This document shows positions 47,166-58,486 of a stretch of DNA of 60,511 nucleotides, piece by piece. Positions within the stretch are counted from its first letter, which is position 1; every line of letters starts with the position of its first letter. Location: assembly GCA_027064135.1 (NCBI GenBank), contig JAMOQG010000025.1, positions 1-60,511 on the forward strand, written 5' to 3'. Origin of the DNA: Peptostreptococcaceae bacterium (GTDB lineage Bacteria; Bacillota; Clostridia; Peptostreptococcales; Acidaminobacteraceae). A program made the translations under genes and the position numbers. The notes beneath the pieces were generated by a model, which saw only the letters and a program-made list of their open reading frames with translations, was not told where the DNA came from and did not search any database.

Positions 47166-47182
47166 AAAATAAAAAACATTAG

Positions 47183-47212
47183 AAATCTTACTATTACAGT
47201 AAGATTTTTTTG
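47183..47212 (+). terminator. Terminator of ssrA
   Basis: AAATCTTACT pairs with AGTAAGATTT around ATTAC, followed by TTTTTTG. Confidence 0.85.
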
Positions 47213-47594
47213 TAAAAAATAAAGAAATATAATACCCTATATATAAAACTCTTACTTTCTTTTTTTCTTTTTTAATGTCAACCATTATAGGTATTTCTAC
47301 TTCATGAATCTGCTTCATTGCTGCTTGTTTACTTATTACATCGGTTGTATTTGTAGCTAATTTACCGCTTGCTCAATAACTCGTATCTACTGCGTTTTCA
47401 ATGCCGTTCTAACACTGTATTAATTATAAAATATATTAGAATAACAAATGGACTCCCAAATATAGGGTTTTTTCTCATTTGAAAATTTCTTCAATTGTAT
47501 TAGTCAATTCTTTTCTTACTATTTGAAAGTGCAATACTAAATGATATTTCTCTACTTATTGCCGTATTATTTATTGTCGGTTGGCTAGTTACTA
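47213..47594 (-). mobile_element. Possible remnant of an ISLre2-type transposase gene, otherwise non-coding
   Basis: The minus strand at about 47260-47400 reads ENAVDTSY-stop-ASGKLATNTTDVISKQ, continuing AAMKQIHEVEIPIMVDIKKE. This resembles the middle of UPF0236/ISLre2 transposases from memory. There are stops and no full ORF, and no inverted ends were found. The rest of the stretch shows nothing. It borders the bacteriocin-like island. Confidence 0.3.
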
Positions 47595-48227
47595 TTATGA
47601 ATTTTGTCCCATTATTTTTGGTCTTGAAATCATATGAATTTTATTTGATGGAATAGAGCATAGCATATAAAGCCCGATGATTAATGATATAGCACATAGT
47701 GGCCAAAAAAATATATCGTATTTTTCGGGTACAATTCGCCATATATATGGAGCAAAATTAGAAAACATGTGTAATGTTATGGGTACATATAAAGATTCAA
47801 ATTTATAATAAAAGAAACCAAATATAAGACCTAATATTATTGTTGGAAATAGTTGATATAAATTAAAATGTGCTATTCCAAATATTAATGCTTGCAAGAA
47901 AAGAGAAATTTTAATACTAAATAGCGAGGTTAATTTTGTTTGGATTAATTTACGGAATATATATTCTTCAATTATTGGAGTAATAAGACTTACATCAATT
48001 ATAGTAAGAAAAATATTGTTATACTGAGCCATTTTAGCCATTTCTTCAAATCCTTTTTCTGTAGATATAAATAATTTAACAAAAATTATAACAATATGTC
48101 CAACAAATTGTGTTCCAATACCAAGAAAAATAAAAGTTATAATTGTGCTATAAGAAAATTTAGATTTGTGTTGTATAAAATAAAATACAAATAATAAAAT
48201 TGTAATTATTGCAATAAAAAAATTCAT
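47595..48227 (-). CDS. CPBP-family intramembrane metalloprotease (bacteriocin immunity/processing candidate)
   Basis: A 210-residue protein with about 6 hydrophobic spans. The CPBP (Abi/CAAX protease) motifs are in place: IEEYIFRK with E87, E88 and R92, FGIAHF with H120, and LHMFSN with H153 and N157. In bacteriocin loci such proteins often serve as self-immunity or as maturation proteases. It follows the peptide gene on the same strand after 65 bases with a hairpin between them. It is clearly related to the second CPBP protein at 52.4 kb (compare QALIFGIAHFNLYQL and QAMLFSLIHFNISQL). Confidence 0.8.
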   Translation of the reverse strand: MNFFIAIITILLFVFYFIQHKSKFSYSTIITFIFLGIGTQFVGHIVIIFVKLFISTEKGFEEMAKMAQYNNIFLTIIDVSLITPIIEEYIFRKLIQTKLTSLFSIKISLFLQALIFGIAHFNLYQLFPTIILGLIFGFFYYKFESLYVPITLHMFSNFAPYIWRIVPEKYDIFFWPLCAISLIIGLYMLCSIPSNKIHMISRPKIMGQNS

Positions 48228-48256
48228 AGATTCTCGCTTTCCTATATTATAAAGAT

Positions 48257-48284
48257 ATTGCAGGAAACATATATTTCCTGCAAT
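48257..48284 (-). terminator. Hairpin between bacteriocin-like peptide and CPBP gene
   Basis: ATTGCAGGAAA / TTTCCTGCAAT, a perfect 11-bp stem with a 6-base loop. The U-tract on the minus strand (ATATCTTT) is weak, so it may act as a partial terminator or protect the peptide mRNA. Confidence 0.6.
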
Positions 48285-48292
48285 AATTGCGT

Positions 48293-48481
48293 TTATTTTC
48301 CGCTATAGTTACCATCATAACTTACGTGATAAACTTTTCCACCTCTGTGTACATTTCTTTCATAAGGTGTTGATGCAATTTTTTTTATTACAAAATCAAT
48401 AGCTTTACCCGCCACATAATCAATAGCGAATCCCCCTCCATCAACTTGCATCATTTCTTCATTTGTCATTTCTTTAAACAT
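48293..48481 (-). CDS. Bacteriocin-like peptide with double-glycine leader
   Basis: A 62-residue precursor, ATG 48481 behind a strong AGGAGG. The leader MFKEMTNEEMMQVDGG is typical of class II bacteriocins and related exported peptides: acidic, with E/M/V-D-G-G at the end, the cleavage site of C39 peptidases. The core would be 46 residues, GFAIDYVAGKAIDFVIKKIA then a polar basic tail with VHRGGKVYHVSYDGNYSGK. It has no cysteine, so no lanthionine or disulfide is expected. The amphipathic first half with AxxGxxxxF spacing suits membrane insertion. A dedicated C39 exporter is encoded divergently. Target and activity unknown. Confidence 0.72.
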   Translation of the reverse strand: MFKEMTNEEMMQVDGGGFAIDYVAGKAIDFVIKKIASTPYERNVHRGGKVYHVSYDGNYSGK

Positions 48482-48636
48482 TTATTACCTCCTATAATAC
48501 TAACATAATATTTCAACAGTTTCTATGGCCAATAGAATTTTATTAACAGATTTTTGATAACCTGTTAATAAATATACTAATAAAAAGAAAATACAATGTC
48601 AAGAAAAATTCAAAAAAAAAAACAAATGTAAAGATG

Positions 48637-48665
48637 TTGACACGTAATCTCAATTACTATATGAT
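48637..48665 (+). promoter_or_regulatory. Strong promoter for the exporter operon
   Basis: TTGACA (48637-48642), a 17-base spacer and TATGAT (48660-48665), 72 bases before the transporter start. The peptide gene leaves in the other direction from the same 255-base region. Confidence 0.65.
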
Positions 48666-48736
48666 ATATTTTGTTATACAAAGTTTATATGTATGTTTTG
48701 TGTAAAAATAATATAAAAAATATTTTGAGGTGAAAA

Positions 48737-50941
48737 ATGATAAACATATTTAAGAAAAAGTATTATTGTGTTAAACAACATGACATAACAGACTGTGGAG
48801 CAGCATGTTTAGCAACAATATCTAAACAACATGGCTTAAAAATACCAATAACAAAAATAAGAGAAATAGCAGGAACAGACAAACAAGGAACAAATGCATA
48901 TGGAGTAATAAAAGCAGCAGAAGAAATAGGATACAGTGCAAAAGGAGTCAAAGGAGATAAAGAAGCATTTTTCTCGGATTTTCCACTTCCAGCAATAGCA
49001 CATGTAGTAATGGAAGGTAGCTTACTTCACTATGTAGTAATACATGAAATAGATAAAAAGAAAGATAAAATAATAATAGCAGATCCTGGAAAAGGATTAG
49101 TAAATTATACTTTAGAGGAGTTTTTTGAACTTTGGACAGGTGTATTAATATTAATGACTCCTACAGCAAAATTTGAAAAGGGTGATGAAACAACAAGTAT
49201 ATTTAAAAGATTCTTTGGATTATTAAAACCACAAAAAAAGTTTTTAATACATATATTTTTTGCATCAATAATATATACAATACTTGGAATACTAGGAGCA
49301 TTTTATTTTAAATTTTTACTTGATGATATAGTACCAGGTAATTTAAGAAATACATTACATATAATAAGTATAGGAATAATACTTCTACATATTTTTAAAA
49401 TAATATTAAATGCGTTTAGAAGCCATTTATTACTATACTTAAGTCAAAAGATAGATATACCAATGAATCTAGGATATTATAACCATGTATTAGATTTACC
49501 AATGAATTTTTTTGGAACAAGAAAAACAGGAGAAATTATATCAAGATTCATGGATGCATCTAAAATAAGACAAGCAATATCAGGAGCAACACTTACAATA
49601 ATGATAGATACATTAATGGCAATAGTAGGCGGAATAATACTATATCAATATAATAGTATGTTATTTGGAGTTGCACTTATAATGCTTATACTTTATGCAG
49701 TAGTAGTATTTGCATTTAATAAGCCAATAAAAGAAATAAATAGAGAACAAATGGAAGATAATTCAGAACTTACATCTTATTTAGTAGAATCACTAAATGG
49801 AATACAAACAGTAAAATCATTTAATGCAGAAAGAGAATCAAAATTAAAAACAGAAAGAAAATTTATAAAATTACTTAAATCAATATTTAAAGGTGGAATG
49901 ATAGATAATTTGCGTGGATCAATAACTGCAAGTATAGGATCAATAGGCGGAGTAGTAATACTATGGATAGGAGTTATTAATGTATTAGATGGGAAATTAA
50001 CATTTGGACAACTCTTAGTATTTCAATCATTACTTGCTTACTTTATAGATCCAGTTAAAAATTTAATTAATCTACAACCAATGATGCAAATGGCAATAGT
50101 AGCATCAGATAGACTAGGAGAAATATTAGATTTGGAAATAGAAAAAACAAAAGAAGAATTTAAAAAACTTAAACCAAGTAAAATAGAAGGAAAAGTAGAA
50201 ATAAGAAATTTAGACTTCAAATATGGAACAAGAGAATTAGTACTTAAAAATATAAATATGAAAGTAAATAAAGGTGAAAAAATAGCTTTAGTAGGAGAAA
50301 GTGGATCAGGAAAAACAACACTTGTAAAATTACTTCTTAAACTATATGAAACAGATAAAGGTGAGATATTAATAGATGATAATAATATTAAAGATATTAA
50401 TCTTGAAGTATTAAGAGAAAAAATAGCATATGTACCACAAGAAACATTTTTATTTAGTGGAAGCATAAGAGAAAATTTAGAATTAGGAGCAAAAAATATT
50501 AGTTTTGAAGAAATAATTGAAGCTTCAAAACTTGCCAAAGCACATGATTTTATAAATAAATTACCACTTAGATATGAAACTAGATTAGAAGAAAATGGAA
50601 CTAATTTATCAGGAGGACAAAGACAAAGATTATCAATAGTAAGAGCAATACTAAAAAAACCAGATGTTTTAATATTAGATGAAGCAACAAGTAATTTAGA
50701 TTCAATAACAGAAAAAGCAATAGAAGAAACAATAGAGAAAACAACAGAAAATATTACTACATTTATAATAGCACATAGATTAAGTACAATAATGAGATGC
50801 GATAGAATATTTGTTATGGATGAAGGTAAAATAATAGAATCAGGAACACATAAAAAACTAATAGAAAACAAAGGTAAATATTATGATTTATGGCAAGGGC
50901 AAAAGTATGAAGAAATAACAATAACGGAGGAAATTAAGTGA
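48737..50941 (+). CDS. Peptidase-containing ABC transporter (C39 peptidase, bacteriocin exporter)
   Basis: A 734-residue protein, ATG behind TTTTGAGGTG. The C39 peptidase domain (1-140) has KQHDITDCGAACLA with Q14 and C20, the LHYVV His (H98) and ADPG Asp (D116), a complete catalytic set. Six membrane spans (about 165-450) are followed by the ATPase domain: Walker A GESGSGKTT from about 520, LSGGQRQRLS, LILDEATSNLD. It would cut double-glycine leaders and export the peptide. Codon choice is different from neighbours, with heavy use of ATA, ACA and GCA, suggesting horizontal origin. The next gene overlaps by 4 bases. Confidence 0.92.
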   Translation: MINIFKKKYYCVKQHDITDCGAACLATISKQHGLKIPITKIREIAGTDKQGTNAYGVIKAAEEIGYSAKGVKGDKEAFFSDFPLPAIAHVVMEGSLLHYVVIHEIDKKKDKIIIADPGKGLVNYTLEEFFELWTGVLILMTPTAKFEKGDETTSIFKRFFGLLKPQKKFLIHIFFASIIYTILGILGAFYFKFLLDDIVPGNLRNTLHIISIGIILLHIFKIILNAFRSHLLLYLSQKIDIPMNLGYYNHVLDLPMNFFGTRKTGEIISRFMDASKIRQAISGATLTIMIDTLMAIVGGIILYQYNSMLFGVALIMLILYAVVVFAFNKPIKEINREQMEDNSELTSYLVESLNGIQTVKSFNAERESKLKTERKFIKLLKSIFKGGMIDNLRGSITASIGSIGGVVILWIGVINVLDGKLTFGQLLVFQSLLAYFIDPVKNLINLQPMMQMAIVASDRLGEILDLEIEKTKEEFKKLKPSKIEGKVEIRNLDFKYGTRELVLKNINMKVNKGEKIALVGESGSGKTTLVKLLLKLYETDKGEILIDDNNIKDINLEVLREKIAYVPQETFLFSGSIRENLELGAKNISFEEIIEASKLAKAHDFINKLPLRYETRLEENGTNLSGGQRQRLSIVRAILKKPDVLILDEATSNLDSITEKAIEETIEKTTENITTFIIAHRLSTIMRCDRIFVMDEGKIIESGTHKKLIENKGKYYDLWQGQKYEEITITEEIK

Positions 50942-52395
50942 AAGAAATTAGTATAAATCTTAGTGAAATATCTGAAAGCAGAGAAGTAATGGAATCAAAA
51001 CCATATCCAGTAGTCATATACTTTATATATTTAATATTAAGTATATTATTAATTTCTTTTACATGGATGTATTTCTCAGAAATAGATATAGTTGTAAAAG
51101 GAAATGGAATAATAAGACCTGTTGAAGGTGTAAGTGTAATTAAGAATAAAGTAACAGGAAAATTAGAAGAGCAGAATATAAAAGAAGGAAAAGAAGTTAA
51201 GAAAGGAGATATTTTATTTATAATAGAACATGAAGAACTTAAATCTACAAAATCTTTATTAGCAAATGAAATAGAATCTGAAACTATAACTTTGAATAAT
51301 TTAATTAAATACAAAAAAAGTATCATTGAGAGAAAAAATTTATTTGATAAAGACAATGAACATGAACAAGAATTTTATTATAAATATATCGAATTCTCCG
51401 AAAACTTAATTAGTTTAAATGAGACAATAAATTCAGAACAAAAAAGATTAATAGTTTTAAATGAAAAAATTAGAAATATAAATCTTTTAAAATTATCAAT
51501 TAAAGAAGAAACAGATAAATTTAATAAGGAAAGTACATATTCATTAAAATTAAAAGAATATGAATTAAGAAAAGAAGAATTAAATCAAAATTCAGAAGAA
51601 CTAAAAAATAAATATGAAACTAATCAAATATTGTTTGAGAAAGACGCTATTTCAGAAAATGCATTAAAAGTAAGTAAAGCAACTTATGAAAATTCAAAAC
51701 TTAAATTCAATCAATATAGTAATTCGTTTAAGAATAATCTTAATATGGAAGAAGAAGGAATAAATTTAGAAATACAAAATTTAAGGACAAGTTTAAATAA
51801 ATTAACAGCAAAGGTGAATAGTAGTGTAGAAACTAACTTACCTATTGAAACAAAAGAAATGGTGAAAATAGATGATCAAATAAAAGTAAAAGAAAAAGCA
51901 TTAAGAAATGTAAAAAATGATTTAAATAGTACAGAGCTAAATATTGATAAATGTATTATTAAAGCAGAAATAAACGGAGTGATAAATCTTAAAAAGAAAA
52001 TATTATTAGGAGATTACATTAGTGGTGGAGAAATAATAGCAAATATAATTCCTAAAAACAATCAAAAGTATAAAGTAGAAATATCAATGCCAGAAAGAGA
52101 AATATCAAATATTGAAGTAGGAGATATAATTAAATATAAATTTAACTCTCTTCCATACAAAGAATATGGAATGCTAAAAGGAAAAGTTATTACAATAAGC
52201 GAAGATTCCATATTCAATGAAGTAAATGGAATAAATAGTTATATTATTAAAGCTGATGTAGAAAATAAAAATTTATATAGCTATAAAGGTAAAAAAGCAA
52301 ATCTAAAAATAGGAATGACTTGTGAAGCACAAGTAATTACAAAATCAAAGAAAGTCTTATTCTATTTACTAGAAAAAATTGACTTATGGGATTAG
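50938..52395 (+). CDS. HlyD-family secretion adaptor (bacteriocin exporter accessory)
   Basis: A 485-residue protein starting at GTG 50938, coupled to the transporter through the GTGA overlap and GGAGG upstream. One membrane span (about 25-48) near the N-terminus, a lipoyl-like half motif VVKGNGIIRPVEGVSVIKN, a long coiled coil (about 85-300) and the second lipoyl half (KAEINGVINLKKKILLGDYI) followed by a beta-barrel with SMPEREISNIEVGD. Such adaptors (ComB/LcnD-like) help C39 transporters move peptides across the envelope. Note the same A-rich codon bias, weaker than in the transporter. Confidence 0.85.
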   Translation: MKEISINLSEISESREVMESKPYPVVIYFIYLILSILLISFTWMYFSEIDIVVKGNGIIRPVEGVSVIKNKVTGKLEEQNIKEGKEVKKGDILFIIEHEELKSTKSLLANEIESETITLNNLIKYKKSIIERKNLFDKDNEHEQEFYYKYIEFSENLISLNETINSEQKRLIVLNEKIRNINLLKLSIKEETDKFNKESTYSLKLKEYELRKEELNQNSEELKNKYETNQILFEKDAISENALKVSKATYENSKLKFNQYSNSFKNNLNMEEEGINLEIQNLRTSLNKLTAKVNSSVETNLPIETKEMVKIDDQIKVKEKALRNVKNDLNSTELNIDKCIIKAEINGVINLKKKILLGDYISGGEIIANIIPKNNQKYKVEISMPEREISNIEVGDIIKYKFNSLPYKEYGMLKGKVITISEDSIFNEVNGINSYIIKADVENKNLYSYKGKKANLKIGMTCEAQVITKSKKVLFYLLEKIDLWD

Positions 52396-52409
52396 TTGGA
52401 GGAGAAAAA

Positions 52410-53213
52410 ATGAATACAAAAATTAAAGCAATATTATCAAGTGTAGGATTAGTTACAGGTTATTTTCTAGCTCAAATGGCAGCTAGTGTTGGAATAGGTA
52501 TATACTATGGAATAAAAGCAGCAAAAATAGGAGTAGATATAGATGTACAAGAAATTGAAAGTATTGCTAAGTCTCATCCTTCAATAATTCTTATGAGTTT
52601 TGTGGGTTTATTATTTTTACTATTAGTTTTTAAGATTAAAAAAGTAAAAATAAAAGAGTATATATCAATTAAGAAAATTAACATAAACCAAATGTTTTTA
52701 TTTATTTGTTATGGATTTGGATTTCAAGTTGTTTCAGGGATAGCAAATTTAACGGTTAATCATTTTCATAATATAGAAAAAAGTGCTGAGAGTATACAAG
52801 AAACTTTGATAAGTGGAAATATATTTACTACAGTTATTATAATATCAATAGTTCTTGCACCAATAATTGAAGAGTTATTATTTAGAGGTATGATTCTTAA
52901 AAAATTAAACAATCATATTAATACAAAATTAGCTATTGTTATTCAAGCAATGTTATTTAGTTTAATTCATTTTAATATCTCTCAATTAGTTCCTACATTA
53001 TTATTAGGTATATTTCTAGGAATATGTTATATAAAATTTGATAATATTATTGCTCCTATAATAGTACATTTAGTTTTCAATAGTATTGGAATTACAATTA
53101 TGGTTATTCCAGAAAGTTTGCAAATTTATTTTTCATATGTAATTATTGCTAGTGCATTTGCATCAGTAATATTATCAATGAAAAGATTAGAAAGTGTAAA
53201 AGCTAATAGTTAA
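52410..53213 (+). CDS. CPBP-family intramembrane metalloprotease, second copy
   Basis: A 267-residue protein; ATG 52410 behind TTGGAGGAG, 14 bases after the adaptor. About seven hydrophobic spans. IEELLFRG (E154, E155, R159), FSLIHFN (H187) and IVHLVFNS are the CPBP motifs. It ends the exporter operon and is followed by a terminator. Being related to the CPBP gene beside the peptide, it could give immunity or take part in processing; which of the two does what cannot be decided. Confidence 0.82.
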   Translation: MNTKIKAILSSVGLVTGYFLAQMAASVGIGIYYGIKAAKIGVDIDVQEIESIAKSHPSIILMSFVGLLFLLLVFKIKKVKIKEYISIKKININQMFLFICYGFGFQVVSGIANLTVNHFHNIEKSAESIQETLISGNIFTTVIIISIVLAPIIEELLFRGMILKKLNNHINTKLAIVIQAMLFSLIHFNISQLVPTLLLGIFLGICYIKFDNIIAPIIVHLVFNSIGITIMVIPESLQIYFSYVIIASAFASVILSMKRLESVKANS

Positions 53214-58456: not shown

Positions 58457-58486
58457 ATAATTTTTTAAAATGGACAAAATAAGTTG

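Follow-up and report, generated by a model that had tools for sequence, protein, structure and literature searches.

A probable class II-like bacteriocin locus with a conserved, possibly hairpin-forming peptide tail in a Peptostreptococcaceae bacterium

According to the available text of PMC6959990, the leaders recognized by peptidase-containing ATP-binding cassette (ABC) transporters (PCATs) follow the register L(-12)xxxE(-8)L(-7)xxxxGG and are removed by the peptidase domains themselves; in PCAT1, A55 and I59 hold the leader residues at -7 and -12 and G135 is the contact at -4. The motif YGNGV marks the class IIa, or pediocin-like, bacteriocins (PMC3546714, available text). The Abi/CPBP proteins SkkI, PlnI and PlnL are bacteriocin immunity proteins in the available text of PMC8538875, and that of PMC8692603 describes a CAAX/CPBP gene with a suspected immunity function in the angicin locus. 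Members of the LsbB/enterocin K1 family have an amphiphilic N-terminal helix and an unstructured C-terminus, with RseP as the likely receptor (PMC5413573, available text). Here we describe a locus with comparable elements at positions 47595-53213 of the window, that is, the whole analysed stretch of 60,511 nt from a Peptostreptococcaceae bacterium (contig JAMOQG010000025.1, GCA_027064135.1). A gene for a 62-residue precursor with a double-glycine (GG) leader lies there on the minus strand, divergent from plus-strand genes for a C39-type exporter, a HlyD-like protein and a CPBP protein, and another CPBP gene lies directly behind it (Table 1). We suggest that the probable product of this locus is an unmodified class II-like bacteriocin that acts as a single peptide and carries a recognition hairpin, and that the CPBP protein encoded behind the peptide protects the producer from it. 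Judged from sequence, the machinery is of the ordinary class II type, and what appears to be new is the peptide family with its hairpin-like tail.

The leader, MFKEMTNEEMMQVDGG, places M5 at -12, E9 at -8, M10 at -7, V13 at -4 and G15-G16 at -2/-1. It fits the PCAT register, with Met replacing Leu at -12 and -7, and has the hydrophobic, acidic and GG positions of C39-processed peptides. The presence of a GG leader at this precursor is more than chance, with one in-register leader behind a ribosome site found in the window and 1 in 150 dinucleotide-preserving shuffles. Three bacteriocin models matched the leader: Bacteriocin_IIc of Pfam (21 bits, E 3.5e-4, below gathering), TIGR01847 (18 bits, cut-off 15.7) and TIGR03949, the class IIb model of lactobin A and cerein 7B (22.0 bits, cut-off 21.5; residues 2-18 on model positions 1-17 of 45). 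The exporter combines Peptidase_C39 (1.8e-38), ABC_membrane (1.1e-53) and ABC_tran (1.3e-38) domains and scores 688.4 bits on TIGR01193, against a cut-off of 523.85. Among solved structures, PCAT1 (4ry2, E 6.7e-264) is the closest to it, and the catalytic C21 and H99 of PCAT1 align with its C20 and H98; D116 aligns with D115, which we take to be the third catalytic residue, giving a C39 domain with Cys, His and Asp. In the leader pocket, A54 and I58 correspond to A55 and I59 of PCAT1, and G135 is replaced by V136, the leader residue at -4 also being V. Because both the leader register and these exporter residues are conserved, cleavage after Gly16, as had been predicted, and export of the core are very likely. 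The HlyD-like protein matches HlyD_3 (44.1 bits, 3.8e-11) and stays below the cut-offs of TIGR01843 (154.3) and TIGR01000 (82.1). All five genes named in the original prediction were found in place, including the strong ribosome site of the precursor (AGGAGG, six bases upstream of the ATG), and its view that they form a gene set for exporting a class II bacteriocin or a signalling peptide is well supported by Pfam and NCBIfam domains. By these matches, the export machinery is that of a standard class II locus.

The 46-residue core is free of Cys and cationic (pI 9.4; charge +2.9 at pH 7), with a calculated mass of 5092.7 (average) or 5089.6 (monoisotopic). Class IIa bacteriocins carry a disulfide, and the core has neither Cys nor YGNGV; it was rightly held not to be pediocin-like. 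In Pfam, NCBIfam and PHROGs, matches were confined to the leader or absent. Against solved structures, the best match of the single core sequence had E 1.4, and a three-row core profile found none at E <= 1. The suggestion that the core may represent a new peptide family thus stands as far as curated families are concerned, but the core is no orphan. We found four relatives (in genomes G027, G140, G059 and G122), making five members from three GTDB families of the same order; the three of them scanned against the family libraries (all but G059) had no core match either. Within our searches, the core appears to belong to a small peptide family that has no name in the sources searched. Its novelty follows from family-library and genome searches, those of the literature not being made by sequence.

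The relative in G027, from another genus and found among 41 genomes of the GTDB family, reads MFNEMSNEEMMKCDGG + GRISDCIPMFKLIKTCVKITKFTSKISRPARNVHRGGKIYHVSAYTPK (57% over 54 aa, E 7.1e-10). It shares the leader and the tail with the window peptide, including RNVHRGGK(V/I)YHVS with 12 of 13 tail residues identical, and its front aligns poorly. Of the 13 tail codons, seven differ through nine nucleotide changes, six silently and one by a V/I replacement; such mostly silent change indicates selection on the protein. The relative in G140, of another GTDB family (f11), reads MLKEMNYQEIMETNGG + FNLGTFLIGAIIGGMIYDVTKRIVIGYINEPYTRIVTRQGQQYLVRYAG and is identical to the window core at 10 of 19 positions in the part that starts with PY and ends with the last G. 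It is encoded divergently from a full C39 exporter (737 aa) and a HlyD protein, and its gene is followed by genes for a DUF3267 putative zincin peptidase (61.3 bits, cut-off 27.1) and a CPBP protein (45.1 bits, cut-off 22.4), which is the layout of the window plus one gene. The three-row core profile also retrieved relatives from one genus of a third GTDB family (f9), in G059 (E 1.8e-7; gapless, 19/41 identical to the window core) and in G122 (E 0.0044; 11/36), which match each other strongly. By eye we saw no GG leader in either (L102 15876-16057 and L103 5399-5572). In G059 a stop lies in frame upstream of the helix, and in G122 a signal-peptide-like start lies just upstream in another frame, so these copies may be broken or misread at the start, or the mature domain may be exported by another route. 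None of 5000 shuffles reached the score of the window core with any of the four relatives; for 14 further GG cores from the order, 207 to 955 of 1000 shuffles did.

What the members have in common is a tail of the pattern Y.(R/K).V.(R/K).G..Y.V.Y.G. Across the five aligned rows V44, G48, Y51 and V53 do not vary, nor does I35, where the alignment of G027 is doubtful. The original prediction had singled out VHRGGKVYHVS; it is kept, but in this exact form in one relative only, while the family as a whole preserves how V, R/K, G, Y, V and Y are spaced. The centre of the tail varies as RGGK, RQGQ, RNGI and KNGV. Asn-Gly favours tight hairpin turns, and a centre of NG, GG or QG suits such a turn, in agreement with the AlphaFold2 model. 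This model, computed from the single sequence, has a helix at 17-36 and strands at 40-46 and 49-55 (precursor numbering, the model's plus 1), and we propose with low confidence that the tail folds as a beta-hairpin behind the helix.

These relatives came from searches of overlapping genome sets. In the order (393 genomes), a two-row precursor profile matched 17 at E <= 0.05 and the three-row core profile 16, with the window, G027 and G140 present by construction. In the class, a profile search matched 8 of 391 genomes at E <= 0.02 and the three-row profile, which covered order and class, 4 of 291 at E <= 0.01; in the phylum, a two-row core profile matched 1 of 398 at E <= 0.001, the window's own. 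All profile matches were translated except L014 and L021 (order, precursor profile) and four three-row rows without a locus, and the remainder were GG leaders in front of different cores, pieces of larger proteins, short frames that we took to be chance, and frames with stops. Among the 41 genomes, G027 also gave a further match limited to the leader, and a chance-like match in G037 (E 0.08, a 449-aa frame) was dropped. A likeness to PYERNFxxDGKxYHH in proteins of 356-384 aa, presumably ApbE (L034, L036, L037, L091 and L100), was put down to chance, since E 0.002-0.01 per genome is to be expected by chance over 291-393 genomes. In L092 (G208), a frame with two stops resembles the helix-plus-tail core (E 0.0097) and is either a decayed copy or chance. 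Plasmids gave one irrelevant match at E 3 for the window peptide and none for those of G122 and G140, and phages held no relative of the peptide. Pattern scans returned 93 and 168 stretches in viral contigs and 69 and 99 in the genome_contigs collection (84,980 species), none of them confirmed; the latter scan reaches close relatives only, and it missed G027 despite its RNVHRGGK, perhaps because the species is absent or because confirmation missed it.

The order of the genes, the register of the leader, the active site and leader pocket of the exporter and the conservation of the tail are features of the sequence itself, and we propose the following working of the locus on them. The C39 domain of the PCAT1-type exporter would bind the GG leader and cut it off after Gly16, and the core would leave through the exporter and its HlyD-like partner. 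Its hydrophobic, helical front would then act on the target membrane, while the C-terminal tail, probably a beta-hairpin of the form Y.R.V.R.G..Y.V.Y.G, would recognize related bacteria by a docking molecule. Protection of the producer would fall to the CPBP protein whose gene directly follows that of the peptide, and the second CPBP protein may aid immunity or export. Killing, receptor binding and immunity are steps that we infer. Both window proteins retain EExxxR, FxxxH and HxxxN (EEYIFR, FGIAH and HMFSN in the protein behind the peptide), and they are mutual best matches among nine compared (32% over 205 aa, E 3e-32). Both had been called proteases, and the motifs are indeed present; but this reading was drawn from the motifs, and immunity is likelier for the protein behind the peptide, which we regard as a probable immunity protein.

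Several observations weigh against such a bacteriocin. The front 20 residues of the core are hydrophobic, with a helical moment of 0.329 against a shuffle mean of 0.205, but 12.6% of 2000 shuffles reach this moment, within chance; of the predicted Cys-free core with an amphipathic N-half, the first part holds and the second is at most mild. The AlphaFold2 model is weak (mean pLDDT 65.2, pTM 0.30), although its hairpin block reaches 87, and Foldseek with this weak model gave no structural hit at E <= 0.001. For G027, the alignment is significant with the window alone and not with G140, G059 or G122; the shuffle tests were made on pairs selected by search, and the per-genome E values of G140 (0.004) and G122 (0.004) are not by themselves significant over 393 genomes. 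In place of EExxxR, the CPBP proteins that follow the G027 and G140 peptides have ETLIYQ and ETLLFQ, and that of G027 is only distantly related to the window's (E 0.002); therefore, a shared peptide-specific immunity is not evident. Behind the G059 and G122 peptides are other small membrane proteins (126 and 104 aa), for which no family above cut-off was found. The G140 locus and the G059 and G122 relatives slightly raised our confidence in the bacteriocin, as they did for a bolder proposal, to which we give about one chance in four: a new family of receptor-directed bacteriocins in which a portable C-terminal hairpin would bind a conserved docking molecule, is joined to a membrane-active helix, with a GG leader or none visible, and is reshuffled by recombination that left truncated exporter 5' ends beside peptide genes in relatives. 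In G027, the same hairpin-like tail stands behind an unrelated front.

It is possible that the exported peptide is a signalling pheromone of the ComC/Blp type, sensed by a histidine kinase, and not a killer. GG-leader peptides and C39 exporters are also used in signalling, the leader region weakly matches ComC (E 0.014) and BlpC (E 0.06), and near the G059 relative we noticed by eye a kinase-like (441 aa) and a response-regulator-like (265 aa) gene. However, no kinase or regulator gene was recognized by eye among the window open reading frames (ORFs) from ssrA to 53395, the single LytTR match of the genome sits on another contig, and a CPBP gene that immediately follows the peptide gene is the usual arrangement for immunity. 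A cationic core of 46 residues is also long for a pheromone, and we consider this explanation unlikely. Slightly less likely still, the peptide could be one member of a multi-peptide bacteriocin of the class IIb kind with its partner absent or elsewhere. The relatives have several GG peptides per genome, and the cut-off of TIGR03949 is narrowly passed, which qualifies the original exclusion of the two-peptide class; but this match is limited to the leader, the core is unmatched, and neither the leader profile in the genome nor the scan of the window found a second GG peptide besides the one described. That a CPBP protein, rather than giving immunity, trims or releases the peptide as a second processing protease would suit the intact motifs of both window proteins and the place of the second gene within the exporter operon. 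Against this, the C39 domain is complete, PCAT peptidase domains cut the leader themselves (PMC6959990, available text), and in G027 and G140 the CPBP protein encoded behind the peptide has neither the Arg nor the second Glu, so we find it improbable. Least probable of all is that the locus is a decayed or silent remnant. Although exporter stubs are many in relatives, the copies in G059 and G122 seem to have damaged starts and 47173-47594 holds only short interrupted frames, the five window genes are intact, the peptide and exporter have ribosome sites (GAGGTG for the latter), promoter-like sites diverge between them, and the tail codon changes are almost all silent. A single-peptide bacteriocin guarded by its CPBP neighbour is thus the reading that we prefer.

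The features of the locus are listed in Table 1. The GTG start of the HlyD-like gene overlaps the stop codon of the exporter gene, and 65 bases separate the peptide gene from the CPBP gene behind it. The strong hairpin between these two is a possible partial terminator or mRNA-end signal and is compatible with differential expression of both genes. The two intergenic promoter candidates face opposite ways; given the background of the scan (17 sites, 14.2 expected), they stand out by quality and place only.

Table 1. Features at the peptide export locus, with positions in the window.
Feature	Position	Strand	Evidence
62-aa precursor peptide with double-glycine leader	48293..48481	-	ORF; Bacteriocin_IIc, TIGR01847, TIGR03949 leader matches
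Leader, residues 1-16, MFKEMTNEEMMQVDGG; C39 cleavage expected after Gly16	48434..48481	-	register match; shuffle control
46-residue core	48296..48433	-	computed properties; relatives
Tail RNVHRGGKVYHVS, residues 42-54, predicted beta-hairpin	48320..48358	-	conservation; AlphaFold2
CPBP/Rce1-like membrane protein, 210 aa, directly behind peptide gene	47595..48227	-	PF02517 70.7 bits, 1.3e-19
Hairpin between peptide and CPBP genes	48256..48285	-	terminator-like scan; 13 pairs, -16.9 kcal/mol
Sigma-70-type promoter candidate, peptide: TTGACA-17-TAGTAT	48574..48602	-	10/12 matches; consensus match only
Sigma-70-type promoter candidate, exporter operon: TTGACA-17-TATGAT	48637..48665	+	11/12 matches; consensus match only
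PCAT1-type peptidase-containing ABC exporter (C39, transmembrane and nucleotide-binding domains), 734 aa	48737..50941	+	TIGR01193; PCAT1 4ry2
HlyD-like membrane-fusion/accessory protein, 485 aa, GTG start	50938..52395	+	HlyD_3; TIGR01843/TIGR01000 below cut-off
Second CPBP/Rce1-like membrane protein, 275 aa, end of exporter operon	52386..53213	+	PF02517 78.1 bits, 6.4e-22
ssrA (tmRNA) gene, left border of variable segment	46802..47165	+	ARAGORN

The DNA to the right of ssrA is a variable site. In G001, the one congener compared, 93% identity extends up to 47173 and the sequences rejoin at 58484 of the window; between them, G001 has 1.9 kb of different DNA (L051 4096-6066) that closes with 31 bp repeating the 3' end of ssrA exactly. 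In the window this end occurs once and no second copy was found, and no integrase was recognized by eye among the ORFs listed at the locus. The word island in the original prediction is therefore apt in part, for the variability of the site, and one mobile island is at most possible. By eye, the G001 insert holds an ATPase-like gene, and we take ssrA to be a hot spot in the genus. The segment 47173-58484 also contains hydrogenase/formate-dehydrogenase-like genes (by eye), and the short frames between ssrA and the CPBP gene are possible gene remnants.

The window has a single intact exporter/peptide unit. C39 matches occurred in 7 of the 41 genomes of the GTDB family, with ten in G017, six of them in frames of 188-367 aa, and five in G027, where four lie in frames of 82-109 aa, two of which contain an internal stop. 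In G017, GG peptides whose leaders are nearly the same (MFKELEMEEMMDVNGG and variants) are encoded divergently from four of the six short frames; two of their cores are related and the others different, and for the remaining two frames, on a 4.3-kb contig, the scan found no peptide gene. The DNA conserved in G017 takes in the leader codons, the intergenic region and the 5' part of the exporter gene and is about 85-86% identical to a full-length copy, although ambiguous bases limit the reading of this array. Repeated GG-peptide units with exporter 5' stubs were seen at L074 2288-13137, L075, L078 and L079 (G017) and at L006 8346-13967 (G027). The stubs look like remains of peptide/immunity module turnover, through cassette turnover or as scars of duplication. 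CPBP proteins with the ET...Q motif, which are perhaps not proteases, are encoded at L006 13190-13702, directly after the G027 tail-sharing peptide, at L006 12427-12861 and at L084 392-865, two genes behind the G140 peptide. Other peptides were also noticed in relatives. GG-type precursors with repeated YGIQP units occur at L029 7726-9861 (G151) and L031 3065-3325 (G088), the former followed by a 513-aa radical SAM/SPASM-like protein (by eye) in what is possibly a cluster for a ribosomally synthesized and post-translationally modified peptide. Cys-rich GG-peptide cores such as NCPNGH...CKNCP lie with a C39 exporter in the same stretches in L081 (G039) and L082 (G038).

If active, the peptide would extend the class II bacteriocins of little-studied anaerobes by a family marked by its conserved hairpin tail, which could then serve directly in the search for the receptor. 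The exporter-stub arrays give a testable picture of how a repertoire of GG peptides may be reshuffled.

Compared with known systems, the locus is closest in its export part to PCAT1 and its substrate CtA of Clostridium thermocellum, with which it shares the exporter architecture, the active site and the leader consensus, apart from Met for Leu at -12 and -7. The V at leader -4 beside V136 of the exporter is consistent with the reported -4 contact. In CtA the leader has 24 and the cargo 66 residues (PMC6959990, available text), against 16 and 46 in the window precursor. With lactobin A and cerein 7B (Bacteriocin_IIc/TIGR03949) the likeness is in the leader, the matches ending at residues 23 (Pfam) and 18 (TIGR03949), and the core is unmatched. 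The loci of sakacin 23K and plantaricins EF and JK, with Abi/CPBP immunity, likewise combine GG peptides and CPBP genes with a C39 exporter and an accessory protein. In contrast to these, the window core has no match in a curated family, and we found no second peptide and recognized no adjacent regulator. The tail of LsbB binds the receptor, and LsbB and enterocin K1 resemble the window peptide in the proposed layout of a helical front and a C-terminal recognition part. The window peptide is nevertheless not a member of that family: its members are leaderless with an unstructured C-terminus, and it has a GG leader and a predicted hairpin.

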